Source of the DNA: Verrucomicrobiia bacterium
GTDB taxonomy: Bacteria; Verrucomicrobiota; Verrucomicrobiia; Verrucomicrobiales; Akkermansiaceae
Assembly (NCBI GenBank): GCA_947462875.1
Contig: CANHQJ010000016.1
Coordinates: 1-64,000 of the forward strand
DNA: 64,000 bases
Reading direction: 5' to 3'
Part shown: positions 5,401 through 54,452 of the stretch, in pieces
Position numbering within the stretch: the stretch's first letter is position 1
How the letters are laid out: each line of letters opens with the position of its first letter
Translations under genes and position numbers: made by a program
The notes under the pieces: generated by a model
What the model was told of the DNA's origin: nothing
The model's database searches: none
What the model saw: only the letters and a program-made list of their open reading frames with translations

Positions 5401-6927
5401 TCAGATGCCGGCTTCGATCACGCACTGGGGCAGCTTTTTCTTCAGCTCTTCGATCCCGGCGGGGGTGACCTTGCTGCGCCAGACGTAGAGTTTTTTCAAC
5501 TGCGGCAGGGCGGCGAGTTTTTGCAGGCCGGCATCGGTGACTTCGGTGCCGTAGATGTTCAGCGATTCGAGCGATGCCATTTTTGCGACCGCGTCCATGC
5601 CGGCATCGGTGACTTTGGTTTCCGATAGGCGCAGGGCGCGCAAGCCTTTGGCAGGGGCGAGCAGGGCGAGGGACTTGTCGGTGATCACGGCGGCGGAGAA
5701 ATCGGCGGAGACCAGACCGGTCATAACGGGGCCGAGCTTGGCGGTATCGTCATCGCTGAATTTCCCGCGCATGCTGACGGCGGTGAAGGTGAGGCAAGCG
5801 GAGTCCTGGGACTCGAACTGCACGGCACCGGGGAAGGATTTTTGCACTTCGGCCATGGCGGCCTTGAGGGCATCGCGCTGGTTGTCAGCCTTCGGTGCGG
5901 CTTCAGAGGTGCTGGGTGCAGGAGCGCTTGGTTTTTTCACCACCGGCGCTTGTTTGGCGATGATGGCGGCGACATCGGCGGGTGCCTTGGCTTCGCTGAG
6001 CTTGACGGTAGGCGAGGCACCGGCATTGATCCACCACTTGATCACGGTGAGCTGTTCGGGGGTGAGGCCGGGCTTTTCATCAGGGGGCATGCGCTCATCG
6101 TCATCGATGGGCAGCTCGCAACGGATCACGATATTGCTCTTGGCGGCATCTCCGGCGACGAGGCCAACGCCTTCTTTGCCGCCTTTGACCAGCAGCTCGT
6201 AGGTGTCCATGCGGAACTTGCCTTTGATTTTATCGGCATTGTGGCACTTCCAGCATTTTTCCTCCATCATCGGCGCGACCACGTCCTGATACACGAGCGG
6301 CTCGGCGGCGGGCGCATCTCCAGCGGGATCTGCTGCGTTTTCCACTTTTCCACCGAGCAGTGGCTTGAGGGCGGGTGGAGCGTATTTGCTAAGGTAGTCG
6401 GTGCCGTGCACCATGGACGCACCATCATGACTGGCGAAGGCCATCACGCCCGCGCTGATGAGGAGCAGGAAGCGGTAGAACCATGCGGCGGAGGCTCCGG
6501 CATCGGTCCAGGACTTGACGATGTAGGCGAGAATGGTCACGCAGGAAAAGGCAATGCCGCCCCAGAGGTGGCGATTGCCGAGATCCGTCGCTTCGCCATC
6601 GAGATCGCTTTGATACAGCAAAAATCCCGCAATCACCGCGATGACCGAGGAAACGGCGGCGAAAAACATGATGCTGCGCGTGGAGGAGACATCACGGGTG
6701 AACAGGGAGGCGAATTCCTGCAGCAGGGCCAAAGTCAGGATGCCGATGGGCAAATGAAGAATCACCGGGTGAAAGCGGCCGAGAAATCGCATCATGTCGG
6801 GCATCGCCTCGCCATTCGGTGGGCCGGCGATCCCTGGCATGGCCAACATGCCTGCGCAGGCACCCAGTCCGAGGATGGTGAGAAAAATCGGTTTACGACG
6901 TGTGGTTGCTTCGGTGGAGTCGCTCAT
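5401..6927 (-). CDS. DUF2231 membrane protein with PSCyt1-type haem domain and leucine-rich repeats
   Basis: The 508-residue protein is built in three parts. Residues about 15-175 contain about five hydrophobic helices with H-P-V-I-L-H-L-P-I-G-I, the signature of DUF2231. A periplasmic C-type cytochrome domain follows, with C-W-K-C-H near residue 225 and the M-P-P-D segment that supplies the distal Met; this is the Planctomycete cytochrome C (PSCyt1) type. After a P/A-rich linker, the last 150 residues carry L-x-x-L-x-L repeats, a leucine-rich-repeat array. This combination is typical of Verrucomicrobia and Planctomycetes. It is probably an electron-transfer component; its partner is not known and it has no DUF1553/1549 neighbour here. 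Confidence 0.88.
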   Translation of the reverse strand: MSDSTEATTRRKPIFLTILGLGACAGMLAMPGIAGPPNGEAMPDMMRFLGRFHPVILHLPIGILTLALLQEFASLFTRDVSSTRSIMFFAAVSSVIAVIAGFLLYQSDLDGEATDLGNRHLWGGIAFSCVTILAYIVKSWTDAGASAAWFYRFLLLISAGVMAFASHDGASMVHGTDYLSKYAPPALKPLLGGKVENAADPAGDAPAAEPLVYQDVVAPMMEEKCWKCHNADKIKGKFRMDTYELLVKGGKEGVGLVAGDAAKSNIVIRCELPIDDDERMPPDEKPGLTPEQLTVIKWWINAGASPTVKLSEAKAPADVAAIIAKQAPVVKKPSAPAPSTSEAAPKADNQRDALKAAMAEVQKSFPGAVQFESQDSACLTFTAVSMRGKFSDDDTAKLGPVMTGLVSADFSAAVITDKSLALLAPAKGLRALRLSETKVTDAGMDAVAKMASLESLNIYGTEVTDAGLQKLAALPQLKKLYVWRSKVTPAGIEELKKKLPQCVIEAGI

Positions 6928-47972: not shown

Positions 47973-49580
47973 TCACCGGCACACCTGATCGAAACTCAAC
48001 CCAAACTTCGCCAGATATTTCTTCAGCCGATCCGCATCGTTCGCCACGGCGCGCTGTTTTCGCGATACCGCGAAGAGCTTGCGCCCGGCGTCCGATAGTG
48101 TGTTGCTGTCGCGGCAGGTTTTTATCACATATACCAACTGCACCCGGTCAAACGGATCGAGATTCGCCGCTGTCTCTTCGCCGAGAATTGTCGTTAGATC
48201 AATTGAATCACCTTCGACTGCTTGTTCCGGGCGTTGCCACGATTGTTTCAGGCGCGTCACTTCTTCCTGCACGTCCATAGTGGTGATACGACCTCGTGGC
48301 GCAAGGGTAGCCATGCGTGTGATCGCCGCATTCAGATCGCGGAAATTCCCGAGCCACGGCGTATCTGCCGCCAGCGCGAATTTCAGAAACGCCTCGCGCG
48401 CTTCTTTGTTGAAGCTCACGGAGCGACCTTGCTTTTCCGCATAACGCGAAAGCTCATAGTCAATGTTCGGCAACAGATCCTCGCGCCGCTGGGCTAACGA
48501 TGGCAGCTCGAACGACCACAGATGAATCCGCGCCAGCAAGTCCTCGCGAAATTTTCCCTCGGCGACCTGCTGTCGCAAATCGCGATTGGTGCCGGCGATC
48601 AGTTGGAAATCACTCTTCACCATCTTGTCAGAGCCCACAGGCAGAAAGATTTTTTCCTCCAAGGCGCGCAGCAGCATCGCCTGTTCATCGAGGCCGAGCT
48701 CGCCGATTTCATCCAGAAACAACAAGCCGCCATGCGCCTCGCGCAGCAATCCCGGTCTGTCCTTTTGCGCGCCCGTGAAGCTGCCCTTCACATGCCCGAA
48801 CAAGGTGGATGCCGCCAAGTCCCCGCGCAGAGTGGCGCAGTTCACTTCCACAAAATTCCCGCGCAATCCGCCGCGTTGTTGCCGCAGCTCGTAGATGCGT
48901 TTTGCCAGTTGTGATTTTCCGGCGCCTGTCGGCCCGCTGAGCAGGATGGGCTCCTTGGATCGCAGGGCGACTTGTTCGATGCGTGCGATCATCTGGTTGA
49001 AGCGCGCGTTCCTGGTCTTGATGCCGCTTTTGAGAAAATCCGTATCCTCGATGTGCTGCTCCTCGAAGCGAGTACTAAGTTTATCGTACTTTGACAAATC
49101 CAGATCGATCACATCATAGCGCGGCTGCGACAGGCCCGTGTGCTTGCGCCCCGCCGGCGGACTCGTCTGGATCAGCTTGGCGGGCAAAAATCCCGCTTCG
49201 GTCAGGAGAAACAAGCAGATTTGAGCAACGTGTGTGCCTGTGGTGATGTGGATATAATACTGCTCATGATCGGTATCGAACGCATACGATTTCGCCCAAT
49301 CATACAGCGCGCCATAGACCTTTTCAAAGTCCCAGGCATCACCCTCAAAGTCTAACAGATGCGGCCGCACCTCGCTGCCCGGCGATACCTGAAGCGCATC
49401 GCGTGCGACATCGCGCGCGAGGCTTTCAAAGGTTTTTTCGTGCAGCAATTCCAGACGGCTCACGAGAAAGTCCTCATGCTGAAACAACGATACCGTGGGC
49501 CGCCAGTGCTCCCAACGATCCTCGCCCCGGCCCCGCCGATCCAGTTGCGTGCCTAACAATCCGATGACTACCTGCTTCAC
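47973..49580 (-). CDS. rtcR: RtcR, CARF-domain sigma-54-dependent activator
   Basis: A 535-residue protein, the usual length of RtcR. The GTG at 49580 (V-K-Q-V-V-I-G-L-L-G-T) is used, as it matches the known RtcR start; upstream residues look like non-coding sequence. Residues 1-180 form the CARF-like sensor with H-I-T-T-G-T-H-V-A-Q. The AAA+ domain has G-P-T-G-A-G-K-S (Walker A), a G-S-F-T-G-A loop (typical GAFTGA variant, contacts sigma-54), and L-L-F-L-D-E-I-G-E-L. A C-terminal winged helix binds DNA. It activates the divergent rsr-Y RNA-rtcBA operon in response to RNA with 2',3'-cyclic ends, as known for enteric RtcR. Confidence 0.96.
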   Translation of the reverse strand: MKQVVIGLLGTQLDRRGRGEDRWEHWRPTVSLFQHEDFLVSRLELLHEKTFESLARDVARDALQVSPGSEVRPHLLDFEGDAWDFEKVYGALYDWAKSYAFDTDHEQYYIHITTGTHVAQICLFLLTEAGFLPAKLIQTSPPAGRKHTGLSQPRYDVIDLDLSKYDKLSTRFEEQHIEDTDFLKSGIKTRNARFNQMIARIEQVALRSKEPILLSGPTGAGKSQLAKRIYELRQQRGGLRGNFVEVNCATLRGDLAASTLFGHVKGSFTGAQKDRPGLLREAHGGLLFLDEIGELGLDEQAMLLRALEEKIFLPVGSDKMVKSDFQLIAGTNRDLRQQVAEGKFREDLLARIHLWSFELPSLAQRREDLLPNIDYELSRYAEKQGRSVSFNKEAREAFLKFALAADTPWLGNFRDLNAAITRMATLAPRGRITTMDVQEEVTRLKQSWQRPEQAVEGDSIDLTTILGEETAANLDPFDRVQLVYVIKTCRDSNTLSDAGRKLFAVSRKQRAVANDADRLKKYLAKFGLSFDQVCR

Positions 49581-49736
49581 GCGGGGACCTTGCCAGAATT
49601 TTGGATAAAATACTAGCGAAAATTCTATGATATACCGAAAAAATGAGAAGCCCAAAAATCCAGAAAGAAAAAATCACATCAAAAAATCATTGGTAAATCA
49701 ATGGTTTCAGCGCTTCCATCATCATTCTCGAAAATC

Positions 49737-49753
49737 TTGGCACGCACCATGCC
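49737..49753 (+). promoter_or_regulatory. sigma-54 promoter of the rsr-rtcBA operon
   Basis: TTGGCACGCACCATGCC matches the -24/-12 consensus TTGGCACG-N4-TTGC well: GG at 49739-49740 and GC at 49751-49752 are 10 bases apart. It lies 31 bases before the rsr start and points to it. RtcR, which needs sigma-54, is encoded divergently upstream. This is strong support for RtcR control. The gap upstream is AT-rich but an RtcR site could not be told apart. Confidence 0.9.
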
Positions 49754-49783: not shown

Positions 49784-51352
49784 ATGAACAAAACACTCTT
49801 CACATCCCTCCGCTCGGCACTGCGGTCTCCCGCTGCCACCAACGATGCCGGTGCTCCCGCCTATCGGTTTTCCGCCGAAGCCGCATTGGCCCAGCTCGCC
49901 TGCACCGGTTGCCTATCGCAAACGTTTTACGCCACGGCGGAAACACAACTGGATCGCGTGCTGGAGCTGGCTCGCCAAGTGGATGCCGATTTCCTCGCTC
50001 GCACCGCCCTCTATTCTCGCGAGGTCGCTCACATGAAAGACATGCCTGCCCTGCTCTGCGCCGTGCTCGCCTCGCGTGATCTCGATCGCTTGAATGAAAT
50101 TTTCCCGCAAGTCATTAACAATGCAAGACTCCTGCGGAACTTCGTGCAAGCCATTCGCTCCGGTGTCACGGGTCGGAAATCTCTCGGCAGCGCCCCGCGG
50201 CGTCTGGTACGTCAATGGCTCGACCGCGCCGATGACGAAACGCTCCTGGCCGCTACGATTGGTAATGATCCTTCGCTCGCCGATGTGATCAAAATGGTTC
50301 ACCCGAAACCGCATTGCGCCCGTCGCGAGGCCTTCTATGCCTGGATCATCGGCCGACCGTACGACCCCGCCTTGCTGCCCGCCATCGTGCAGGAGTTCGA
50401 GGCCTGGAAAGCGGATCGTTCCCAGCCTTTGCCGCGCGTGCCGTTTCGTTTGCTCACCGCCGAGCCACTCACCACGCGGCAATGGACGGAAGTCGCACTG
50501 TATGCGAACTGGACGACCACACGCATGAACCTCAACACCTTTGCCCGTCATGGCGTGTTGAAAAATGCCGAGTTGGTGACACTGCTCGCCAAGCGTTTGT
50601 CCGATGCCACCCAGGTGCGCCGTGCCAAAGTGTTTCCCTATCAACTGCTCGCCGCTTTCCTCAATGCGGAGTCGAACATCCCGCAAGCACTCACCCTCGC
50701 TTTGCAGGATGCCCTCGAAATCGCCACGGAACAGGTGCCGGCCTTGCAAGGGAATGTCTCTGTCGCCATCGATATCTCCGGCTCGATGCACAGCCCCGTC
50801 ACCGGTCAGCAAAAAGGCCGCAGCTCGCGCGTTCGTTGCCTCGATGCCGCCGCCCTGATCGGTGCCGCCATCGTCCGCAAAAATCCGTTAGCCACGATCA
50901 TTCCCTTCCACGAAATCGCTCTGAGCCAATCCCTGAACCCGCGCGATTCCGTGATGACGAATGCCCGCATGCTGGCGAATCTGCCATCCGGCGGAACCGA
51001 TTGCAGCGCCCCGCTGCGATGGATCAATCAGATGAATGCCTCGCCTTCCCTGGTGATCATCGTCTCCGATAACGAGTCCTGGTGTCATGCCCACAACCGT
51101 CAAACGACTCCGGTCATGCGCGAGTGGAGTAAAATCAAAGCACGCCAGCCCCATGCCAAACTGGTGTGCATCGACCTGGCCCCCAATACCACCACCCAGG
51201 CTCCGGACCGCAGCGATATCCTCAACATCGGTGGCTTCAGCGATGAAGTCTTCACCCTCGTGAAAAATTTCGCCGACAGCAACGCCTCACCCGATCACTG
51301 GGTGCGGCGCATCAATCAACAGGTATTGCGCGCCAGACAGCGCATCGCTTGA
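49784..51352 (+). CDS. rsr: Rsr, bacterial Ro60 orthologue (TROVE/vWA)
   Basis: A 522-residue protein. The N-terminal half is the helical TROVE ring that binds Y RNA and the ends of misfolded RNA. Typical stretches are F-L-A-R-T-A-L-Y-S-R-E, M-K-D-M-P-A-L-L and M-N-L-N-T-F-A-R-H-G-V. The C-terminal vWA-like domain has a complete MIDAS: D-I-S-G-S (Asp330), G-G-T-D, and S-D-N-E-S. In Deinococcus and Salmonella Rsr works with Y RNA to guide exonucleases. It is the first gene after the sigma-54 promoter, and three Y-RNA structures follow within 425 bases. Confidence 0.97.
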   Translation: MNKTLFTSLRSALRSPAATNDAGAPAYRFSAEAALAQLACTGCLSQTFYATAETQLDRVLELARQVDADFLARTALYSREVAHMKDMPALLCAVLASRDLDRLNEIFPQVINNARLLRNFVQAIRSGVTGRKSLGSAPRRLVRQWLDRADDETLLAATIGNDPSLADVIKMVHPKPHCARREAFYAWIIGRPYDPALLPAIVQEFEAWKADRSQPLPRVPFRLLTAEPLTTRQWTEVALYANWTTTRMNLNTFARHGVLKNAELVTLLAKRLSDATQVRRAKVFPYQLLAAFLNAESNIPQALTLALQDALEIATEQVPALQGNVSVAIDISGSMHSPVTGQQKGRSSRVRCLDAAALIGAAIVRKNPLATIIPFHEIALSQSLNPRDSVMTNARMLANLPSGGTDCSAPLRWINQMNASPSLVIIVSDNESWCHAHNRQTTPVMREWSKIKARQPHAKLVCIDLAPNTTTQAPDRSDILNIGGFSDEVFTLVKNFADSNASPDHWVRRINQQVLRARQRIA

Positions 51353-51360
51353 TCACTCTC

Positions 51361-51398
51361 AGGGGCGATGCATCGTTCTGACTTCGGTCATCGCCCCT
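51361..51398 (+). terminator. hairpin just after rsr
   Basis: A perfect 10-bp stem (51361-51370 with 51389-51398) lies 8 bases after the rsr stop. An alternative inner hairpin TGAC-TTCG-GTCA has a UUCG tetraloop. There is no T-run, so it is more probably an attenuator, processing hairpin or 3' protection of rsr mRNA than a true terminator. Confidence 0.5.
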
Positions 51399-51405
51399 TA
51401 TCCCC

Positions 51406-51533
51406 TTCCGATGAATGCCCTAATGATTCCATTGGTCGTCGGTTCGAATCCGACCCTGCTCCCCGGCAGGTAGCTCAGTTGGCAGAGCAGTCATAGAAAA
51501 GCGTCATGATAAACTTTGTCATCGGAATTTTTT
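51406..51533 (+). ncRNA. yrlA: Y RNA-like RNA 1 (YrlA type, permuted tRNA-like module)
   Basis: A 9-bp terminal stem pairs 51406-51414 with 51519-51527, then six T (51528-51533) follow, as at an intrinsic 3' end. The 5' side shares GAATGC..ATGATTCCAT (51413-51432) with RNA 3. Inside is a permuted tRNA-like module: T arm GTCGG-TTCGAAT-CCGAC (51438-51454), acceptor-like hairpin CCTGC/GCAGG (51455-51459 with 51466-51470), then TA and D arm GCTC-AGTTGGCA-GAGC (51473-51488). This T-acceptor-D order is known for bacterial YrlA RNAs, which bind Rsr. Confidence 0.88.
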
Positions 51534-51546
51534 CTCACTAACATTT

Positions 51547-51612
51547 TTGCCGAATGCCGAATGAAACTACATTTATCACATGTTAGACGTTTCATTCATC
51601 CCTTGTCGGCAA
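51547..51612 (+). ncRNA. Y RNA-like RNA 2, minimal Y stem without tRNA-like module
   Basis: A 7-bp outer stem (51547-51553 with 51606-51612), an internal loop ATGCC opposite ATCCCTTG, and a perfect 9-bp inner stem (51559-51567 with 51589-51597) closed by a 21-base loop. The internal loop is at the same place and of the same kind as in RNA 3 (ATGCA opposite ATTCCTTG), and GAATGC is shared by all three. It lacks a T arm and a D arm. It may be a stand-alone Rsr-binding stem or a degenerate copy. Whether it is a separate transcript is unknown. Confidence 0.72.
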
Positions 51613-51635
51613 TCCATTTTCATCTTACAAAATTT

Positions 51636-51775
51636 GATTCACGAATGCAGCGATGATTCCATGGAACTACGAGCGTCGGTTCGATTCCGGCCCAGCCAAC
51701 GCTGATTCAACTCAGATTGGCTGGTCGACCAGTGGCAGGTCAGTAAAAAAATCATCGCATTCCTTGTCGTGAATC
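51636..51775 (+). ncRNA. Y RNA-like RNA 3 (permuted tRNA-like module)
   Basis: The outer stem is 9 bp and perfect (51636-51644 with 51767-51775). The internal loop is ATGCA opposite ATTCCTTG, and the inner stem is 9 bp and perfect (51650-51658 with 51750-51758). The module inside is permuted: T arm GTCGG-TTCGATT-CCGGC (51675-51691), an 8-bp perfect acceptor-like stem (51692-51699 with 51717-51724) and D arm GACC-AGTGGCA-GGTC (51727-51741). Primary sequence differs from RNA 1 but architecture is the same, so the pairs co-vary. No clear U tract follows. rtcB starts 60 bases on. Confidence 0.88.
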
Positions 51776-51835: not shown

Positions 51836-53314
51836 ATGATCCATAAAACATCCGAAGCCCTCGGCTTCATTCCTACCAAAAACAGCGATGGAAAACCCAT
51901 CACCGTCATCGGCACTGACAAGATCCGCGATGGCTTCGATGACACTTGTCTCGCCCAGGCACTCAACTCGCGTGAGGCTCCCGGTGTCACCGATCTCATT
52001 CTCAATCCCGATGCCCATGCCGGTTACGGCGCTCCCGTGGGTTGCGTGATGGTCTCGCCGACCCACATCTATCCGGGTCCCGTCGGCGTGGACATCAAGT
52101 GCTCCATGTCTCTACTCCAGCTCGATGTGCCCGAGGATGCCATTGCCGATAAAACGATACGCCGCGCCCTCATCAATGCCATTTGCGAACGCACACCAAC
52201 TGGCGCCGGTCGCGGCCAACGATCGGCGAAAAAGTCCCGTCACGTGGGGATCGATCTCGGCCGCAAAGTCATCACGCAGGGTGCTACCGCCGATGTGTTA
52301 GAAGCGCTCGGAATCCCCGTGGAGTGGGCCGAGCGATGCGAAGACCACGCGCACTTCGGACACGATGGTTGCGTTTCCACGCTGCAAGAGCGTCTCGATC
52401 GCATGGAAAATTCCGGCTATCATGACCGCTTGCCGAACAAGATCATGCAGCTCGGTTCCTACGGTGGCGGCAATCATTTCGGCGAGGCCGAGATCGTGGA
52501 AATCAACGACACGCCCGAGGCCCGTCGCGCCGCAGAGGTCTTCGGTTTGAAAAACAAACACGTCGCCTTTCTCAGCCACTGCGGATCGCGCGGGCTCGGT
52601 CACGACCTTGCCTCGAATCAATTCAAGGCTCTCGAAAAACACTTCCAGGCCTGGCACTTGCCCTATCCTTCCGGCGACCGTCAACTCGTGTATGCACCGC
52701 TCGGTTCGCCCGAGGGCAATGCCTACCTTGATGACATGGCCATGGGATCGAACTTCGCGACCGTGAACCACATGTTGATCAATGCCCTGGTGCTCGAAGC
52801 TTTCCAGGAAATCCTGCCCGGAACGCAAGGAAAGCTCGTGTATTTCATCAGCCACAACATCGCCCGCGAAGAGATCGTGGACAACCGTCCGCAGTGGGTG
52901 CACCGCAAGGGGGCGACCCGCGCGTTTCCCGCCGGTCACCACGCCCTCAAGGATACGCCTTTTGCCAACACCGGTCACCCGATCCTGTTGCCCGGAAATC
53001 CGCGCGATGGTTCCCTCGTCATGGCCGCGCTGCCGGGTGCGGAAAAATCGTGTTACTCCGTCAACCACGGCGCCGGACGACAAATGGGGCGAAAGCACGC
53101 CATCCGCACCCTCGATCAAGGAGAAGTGGACAAGGACTTCGATGCCCAGGACATCCTCACCAACTGCCGAACCTATCCGAAAGACGAAGCGCCCGATGCC
53201 TACAAGGATTTCAACGAAGTCCGCAACAGCGTCGAGATCGCCGGCCTTGCCCACACCGTGGCGAAACTCCGCGCCCGCTTCGTGATCAAGGATGCGGATA
53301 AGGCGGATGATTGA
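51836..53314 (+). CDS. rtcB: RNA-splicing ligase RtcB
   Basis: A 492-residue ligase with its metal site Asp86-x-x-Cys89 in G-V-D-I-K-C, a G-G-G-N-H-F motif, S-H-N-I-A-R-E-E and the guanylated His in S-V-N-H-G-A-G-R. It joins 5'-OH ends to 2',3'-cyclic phosphate or 3'-phosphate ends using GTP. It follows Y RNA 3 by 60 bases and its ATG lies in an AT-rich leader. It is part of the RtcR-controlled operon. Confidence 0.97.
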   Translation: MIHKTSEALGFIPTKNSDGKPITVIGTDKIRDGFDDTCLAQALNSREAPGVTDLILNPDAHAGYGAPVGCVMVSPTHIYPGPVGVDIKCSMSLLQLDVPEDAIADKTIRRALINAICERTPTGAGRGQRSAKKSRHVGIDLGRKVITQGATADVLEALGIPVEWAERCEDHAHFGHDGCVSTLQERLDRMENSGYHDRLPNKIMQLGSYGGGNHFGEAEIVEINDTPEARRAAEVFGLKNKHVAFLSHCGSRGLGHDLASNQFKALEKHFQAWHLPYPSGDRQLVYAPLGSPEGNAYLDDMAMGSNFATVNHMLINALVLEAFQEILPGTQGKLVYFISHNIAREEIVDNRPQWVHRKGATRAFPAGHHALKDTPFANTGHPILLPGNPRDGSLVMAALPGAEKSCYSVNHGAGRQMGRKHAIRTLDQGEVDKDFDAQDILTNCRTYPKDEAPDAYKDFNEVRNSVEIAGLAHTVAKLRARFVIKDADKADD

Positions 53315-53432: not shown

Positions 53433-54452
53433 ATGAATACCATTTCCGGCAGCAACGGAGGAGGACAGATCCTTCGCACAGCACTCACGCTCTCCATGAT
53501 CACGGGGCAGGCGTTTCGCATGACTCACATTCGTGCGCAACGCCGCAAGCCGGGGTTGATGCGGCAGCACCTGACTTGTGTCACGGCTGCTGCGGCCATT
53601 TGTAACGCTTCGCTGGAAGGCGCGGAGATCGGTAGCACGGAGTTGCTGTTCACTCCGGGTGCGATCACTGCGGGCGATTATCACTTTGCCATCGGCAGTG
53701 CCGGTAGCACCACCTTGCTGGCGCAAACCTTGTTGCCGGCGTTGTGGCATGCGAGCGCGCCCAGCTCCCTCACGCTCGAAGGCGGCACGCACAACCCTCT
53801 CGCGCCGCCGAGCCATTTCATGGATGAAATTTATCTCGGCACCCTGCGCAAGAGCGGCCTGGACGTGACCTGCGCTCTTCACGAATACGGTTTCGCCCCC
53901 GCCGGTGGCGGACGCATTCACTTGCAAATCCAGCCCTGCGCGGTACTGACTGCGGTAGATCTGTCAGAACGTGGCAGTCTGGAGACACTGGAAATGGAAG
54001 TCATCGTGCGCAATCTCGATTGGTCCATCGCCGAGCGTTTCATCACCGTGATGCAGAAAAATTTCCCCCACGCCGCGATCCGCCGCACCATGCTCAAGTC
54101 CGGTCCGGGGCAGGGAATTTGCTGTTTGGTGCGTGCAGAGTTTTCGCAGAGCAAAGAAATGTTCAGTTCCTTTGGGGAAATCAGCGTTAAAGCGGAAACA
54201 CTGGCAAAACGATGCGCGCATCAAGTGAAACACTTTCTCGCATCGCAAGCCGCTGTCTCGCATCACCTGGCCGATCAACTCCTGCTGCCGATGGCGCTGC
54301 ACCAAGGCGGCGGGTTCACCACCCTCAAGCCCGATGAACATTTCCTGACCAATCGCGATACGATTCTCGCGTTTCTGCCGGATGTGGGAATCGATACCGA
54401 TGCGCAGGACGCATTGTGCCATGTGCGTATTGAAACCCATGCCCGCGGATGA
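53433..54452 (+). CDS. rtcA: RNA 3'-terminal phosphate cyclase RtcA
   Basis: A 339-residue enzyme. The N-terminal G-G-G-Q-I-L-R-T-A-L and R-K-P-G-L-M-R-Q-H-L are typical, and S-A-G-S-T-T-L-L-A-Q follows. The adenylated His is likely in D-E-H-F-L-T-N near residue 306. It turns RNA 3'-phosphate into 2',3'-cyclic phosphate, which RtcB can then ligate. It closes the operon; its stop is 46 bases from the convergent ftsZ. Confidence 0.95.
   Translation: MNTISGSNGGGQILRTALTLSMITGQAFRMTHIRAQRRKPGLMRQHLTCVTAAAAICNASLEGAEIGSTELLFTPGAITAGDYHFAIGSAGSTTLLAQTLLPALWHASAPSSLTLEGGTHNPLAPPSHFMDEIYLGTLRKSGLDVTCALHEYGFAPAGGGRIHLQIQPCAVLTAVDLSERGSLETLEMEVIVRNLDWSIAERFITVMQKNFPHAAIRRTMLKSGPGQGICCLVRAEFSQSKEMFSSFGEISVKAETLAKRCAHQVKHFLASQAAVSHHLADQLLLPMALHQGGGFTTLKPDEHFLTNRDTILAFLPDVGIDTDAQDALCHVRIETHARG

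Follow-up and report, generated by a model that had tools for sequence, protein, structure and literature searches.

Two probable YrlA-class Y RNAs with tRNA-like modules in the rsr-rtcBA locus of a verrucomicrobial genome

INTRODUCTION

The structure of Salmonella YrlA is said to have been solved by Wang et al. 2018. Y RNAs have reportedly been found next to Ro60 in more than 250 species of bacteria and phages, and at least one Y RNA per species is said to bear a tRNA-like domain, both findings being ascribed to Chen et al. 2014 (RNA 20:1715). The permuted order of the tRNA-like arms is the already known architecture of the YrlA family and not a new one, and it can be read directly from the Rfam YrlA consensus. 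The Salmonella YrlA structure is PDB 6CU1, as cited in PMC8394870, and the Salmonella operon and YrlA biology, as described in PMC7790460 and PMC8394870, serve here as the model for the role of Rsr and its Y RNAs. A literature search for Y RNAs in Verrucomicrobia returned nothing on the point. Here, we analyse a locus in a 64,000-nucleotide stretch of a Verrucomicrobiia bacterium genome (contig CANHQJ010000016.1), referred to as the window.

RESULTS

Gene context of the Y RNAs

Three structured RNAs, all on the + strand, occupy the gap between rsr and rtcB. The rsr gene (49784-51352, + strand) encodes a Ro60/TROVE orthologue of 522 aa (vWA_Ro60, 3.9e-21), whose TROVE match (1.9e-4) falls slightly below the TROVE cut-off and whose similarity to D. 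radiodurans Rsr (2NVO) is distant yet clear (phmmer E 5e-22, 81 bits). Beyond the RNAs lie, on the same strand, the genes for the RNA ligase RtcB (51836-53314; Pfam RtcB 7e-101) and the RNA 3'-phosphate cyclase RtcA (53433-54452; Pfam RTC 4e-71, RTC_insert 1.6e-6). The rtcR gene (47973-49655, - strand), which encodes a sigma-54 activator with an RtcR/CARF-type sensor domain (Pfam RtcR PF06956 2e-78, Sigma54_activat 5e-51), is divergent from this rsr-Y RNA-rtcBA operon. A sigma-54 -24/-12 promoter-like element, TGGCACGCACCATGC (49738-49752, + strand), was the sole such match in the window, where the expectation by chance is 0.46 and about half of the shuffled windows hold one; it carries weight because it sits immediately upstream of rsr and because it is also kept in L034 (the same record as G080, from the same genus as the window), where the surrounding upstream DNA has otherwise diverged. 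Divergent rtcR, the sigma-54 promoter-like site, rtcB and rtcA are the components of an RtcR-controlled rtcBA RNA-repair operon, and here the Ro60 orthologue adjoins the RNAs that we assign to the YrlA class. The pnp, truB and rpoN genes were all found in the genome.

Separating rsr from the first RNA, a strong hairpin was observed at 51361-51399 (AGGGGCGATG...CATCGCCCCTT). L034 retains it with a G-C pair replaced by G-U, and it may mark the 3' end of an mRNA or serve in processing.

Anatomy of the three RNAs

RNA 1 (51406-51527) and RNA 3 (51636-51775) each form a two-part Y stem with the conserved GAAUGC and UUGUC strands and carry at its far end a module with the order T arm, acceptor-like hairpin, D arm, as an earlier sequence-only reading had described with correct coordinates and anatomy. 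In RNA 1, the T arm (GTCGG-TTCGAAT-CCGAC, 51438-51454), the acceptor-like hairpin (CCTGCT/GGCAGG, 51455-51470, closed by a 4 nt loop) and the D arm (GCTC-AGTTGGCA-GAGC, 51473-51488) are supported by the fold, by the match to the covariance model R1 and by covariation, together with tRNA core residues for the T and D arms and the orthologue comparison for the hairpin. In RNA 3, the T arm (GTCGG-TTCGATT-CCGGC, 51675-51691) is supported by the R1 match, covariation, the orthologue and tRNA core residues, the acceptor-like hairpin (CCAGCCAA/TTGGCTGG plus an inner CTGA/TCAG, 51692-51724) by two compensated changes and a retained inner stem in the L034 orthologue, and the D arm (GACC-AGTGGCA-GGTC, 51727-51741) by a compensated C-G to G-C change in the same orthologue; all of these elements are on the + strand. 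The two acceptor-like stems do differ, as had been proposed, but the lengths of 5 and 8 bp had to be amended, RNA 1 having five Watson-Crick pairs and one G-U, and RNA 3 having 8 bp followed by the inner stem.

Between them, RNA 2 (51547-51615, + strand) is a bare Y stem without the tRNA-like module, matched by Rfam YrlA with the module deleted (24.5 bits, E 0.007), and its orthologue is present in L034 at about 6047-6112. RNA 1 and RNA 3 were both more stable than their shuffles (z -3.3 and -4.9, respectively), and RNA 2 gave a z of -2.9. The minimum-energy fold of RNA 3 is without the T arm, which covariation does support; its D stem is unusual, and its position 9 is C where most family members have A.

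Similarity searches and covariance models

At Rfam curated cut-offs, two tRNAs were the sole matches reported in the window. Rfam YrlA (RF02553) matched RNA 1 and RNA 3 over its full length (1-114 of 114; E 6.8e-13 and 1e-8, respectively), with scores for RNA 1, RNA 3 and RNA 2 of 59.1, 44.6 and 24.5 bits, all below the curated cut-off of 69, a threshold that curators set for annotation rather than a feature of the structure. In the same genus, the orthologue of RNA 1 scored 69.8 bits, and close relatives within the same family also score over the cut-off. The present locus suggests that the Rfam threshold misses real family members.

The earlier reading had called for a covariance model run on other Verrucomicrobia rsr loci. 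R1, which was built from 31 relatives without any window sequence, found RNA 1 at 93.0 bits and RNA 3 at 79.3 bits (E about 1e-20 or better), while over the surrounding 20 kb its next match was the T arm of a tRNA-His (10.6 bits), with nothing else credible. Within the genus, all three genomes with Rsr gave strong R1 matches over the full length, the best at 93-100 bits, whereas the seven genomes without Rsr had either no match or weak matches of 28-36 bits. All except one of these weak matches were partial, and they are likely to be other tRNA-like RNAs.

Covariation across the family

The 150 top-scoring R1 hits came from 71 sources and yielded 147 distinct sequences; besides the window, these sources comprised Rsr loci from Verrucomicrobia, Planctomycetota, Alpha- and Gammaproteobacteria, Acidobacteriota and other groups. 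Counts were taken on the model-fitted alignment with slid controls, as MAFFT misplaced the D arm of RNA 3. In these 147 sequences, 97.6% of the pairing cells could pair as compared with 76.7% after shuffling, and changes on both sides were seen in 28 of the 29 pairs. The covariation score was 0.59, as against 0.07-0.10 when partners were slid by 1-3 columns; the figures lean upward, given the model-fitted alignment, a few rows from the model seed and the relatedness of the sequences, but the gap to the slid controls remains large. The acceptor-like hairpin is hypervariable in length across the family (8-112 nt), and all 150 hits are co-oriented with rsr.

The proposal that pairings are kept while bases change, drawn from the D stems GCTC/GAGC and GACC/GGTC, was borne out by this covariation and by the compensated changes in orthologues. 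The 16/20 identity between 51413-51432 and 51643-51662 was likewise counted exactly, and ten 20-mer pairs at such identity were found in the 483-base region with none in 20 of 20 shuffles; it is nevertheless no separate evidence for folding, because the 5' Y-strand (GAAUGC...) is largely invariant across the YrlA family. The segment is this conserved 5' Y-strand, and its identity reflects shared ancestry or protein-binding sequence.

Comparison with orthologues

L034 carries five tandem Y RNAs, namely orthologues of RNA 1, RNA 2 and RNA 3 (the last at 6132-6272) and two more. In the RNA 3 orthologue, two acceptor changes and one D-stem change were compensated and one U-G of the T stem became U-A, while two inner pairs and one outer pair of the Y stem were lost without compensation. 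Comparing RNA 1 with G067, changes in the T stem and the acceptor stem were compensated and one pair at the acceptor end was lost; the inner Y stem of RNA 1 itself contains an A.G mismatch at a position that is C-G in relatives. Uncompensated stem-breaking mutations, which had been named as grounds for abandoning the structure, were thus confined to a few Y-stem and helix-end positions, and the T, acceptor and D arms as a whole remained intact, retaining their pairs except for one at a helix end.

Tandem Y RNA arrays mixing bare and module-bearing types were observed in L034 (5625-6272) and at other Rsr loci. Chthoniobacter flavus Ellin428 (L064), a cultured relative among the Verrucomicrobia, likewise has Rsr together with YrlA RNAs. 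A YrlA-like RNA in a Rubritalea MAG (L037, 2948-3077) has a T arm and an acceptor-like hairpin and no recognisable D arm, which has apparently been swapped for another hairpin. Viral contigs from IMG/VR also carry Rsr and Y RNAs; in L166 and L168 the Y RNAs lie upstream of rsr, and in L163 they follow it.

Likeness to tRNA

RNA 1 and RNA 3 retain the tRNA core residues, with the T loop UUCGA(A/U)U, the U8 equivalent, and D loops with an A at the start and GG inside. Across the family, U8 was present in 144/150, A14 in 141/148 and GG in 137/148. In both RNAs, the position of the anticodon arm is occupied by the Y stem. Compared with the tRNAs of this genome, RNA 1 had a D arm most like that of tRNA-Lys and a T arm most like that of tRNA-Thr, while no particular tRNA was closest to the D arm of RNA 3. 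A single parent tRNA for the modules was considered and rejected on this basis.

In L043 (5743-5882), an Rfam tRNA call above the cut-off (40.1 bits) spans two adjacent YrlA genes, where the D arm of the first gene and the T arm of its neighbour together resemble a single tRNA; such an arrangement is a likely source of false tRNA annotation.

DISCUSSION

Rfam similarity, the independent model R1, covariation with its controls and compensated changes in orthologues confirm that RNA 1 and RNA 3 have a real, selected structure, in agreement with the earlier reading, which had not placed them in the known YrlA class and its known operon. We are highly confident that both are YrlA-class bacterial Y RNAs, because of the Rfam and R1 matches, covariation, tRNA core residues, operon proteins, the sigma-54 element, the co-occurrence with Rsr and the presence of pnp, truB and rpoN. 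The sub-cut-off Rfam scores, the oddities of RNA 3 (its D stem and the C at position 9) and the uncompensated Y-stem losses count against this identity. Three features represent variation within the YrlA family, namely the array of three RNAs, the presence of a bare Y RNA and the division of the RNA 3 acceptor-like hairpin into two parts.

By analogy with studied relatives, the GAAUGC...UUGUC Y stem would bind the Ro60 orthologue Rsr. The far end folds into a tRNA-like core of T arm, hairpin-capped acceptor stem and D arm, with the Y stem substituting for the anticodon arm. This module is most likely the effector-binding part, docking tRNA-binding enzymes, and it may tether Rsr to PNPase for the decay of structured or damaged RNA, a role that we regard as reasonably probable in this organism. 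RtcR would sense cleaved tRNA ends, the presumed inducer, and switch on the operon from the sigma-54 site. The modules may also receive tRNA-type modifications, as suggested by studied relatives.

The modules could instead act mainly as tRNA decoys: under tRNA damage they would compete with tRNAs for the anticodon nuclease or for other enzymes that bind tRNA, and tethering of PNPase would not be their main task. The retention of a full tRNA core with the anticodon arm missing would fit this, as would the induction of the Salmonella operon by tRNA damage and the inhibitor idea for YrlA raised in PMC7790460; such a role, however, leaves the family-wide joining of the module to an Rsr-binding Y stem unexplained, and we consider it unlikely as the main one, although it is compatible with tethering and the two are not exclusive. 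That the RNAs are permuted tRNA genes maturing into functional tRNAs is extremely improbable: the halves do stand in permuted order and the arms of RNA 1 resemble those of tRNA-Lys and tRNA-Thr, but both RNAs are without an anticodon arm and an acceptor end that could be opened and charged, the conserved Y stem and the Rsr-linked array speak against it, and neither ARAGORN nor Rfam gives a tRNA call at RNA 1 or RNA 3. The loop that caps the acceptor end, and the wide variation in hairpin length across the family, argue against charging. The closeness of the RNA 1 arms to real tRNA arms might also suggest chance or degenerate tRNA fragments in intergenic DNA, a reading to which we give practically no credence, as it is refuted by the strong covariation, the compensated changes in orthologues and the R1 E-values.

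Within the YrlA class, RNA 3 could represent a subtype of its own, specialised to bind an effector other than that of RNA 1 through its long two-part hairpin and altered D stem. We consider this quite doubtful; if true, different Y RNAs arrayed in tandem would let a single Rsr serve several partners.

With this locus, the YrlA family gains Verrucomicrobia examples that show clear covariation and tandem arrays; ideas on how Y RNAs work are left unchanged. With the Deinococcus radiodurans Rsr/Y RNA system, which forms RYPER with PNPase, it shares a Ro60 orthologue, a Y RNA and a pnp gene in the genome, but the Rsr proteins are only distantly similar. With Salmonella YrlA, RNA 1 and RNA 3 share the GAAUGC/UUGUC Y stem, the order of T arm, closed acceptor-like stem and D arm, the tRNA core residues and the adjacent rsr and rtcBA; they differ in scoring 59 and 45 bits against the RF02553 cut-off of 69, and RNA 3 also in its acceptor hairpin of 8 bp plus inner stem and its GACC/GGTC D stem. 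The Salmonella rsr-yrlBA-rtcBA operon (PMC7790460) and the present locus have in common divergent rtcR, rsr, Y RNAs, rtcB, rtcA and a sigma-54 site upstream of rsr, while the Salmonella operon has two Y RNAs and the verrucomicrobial one has three, one of them bare.
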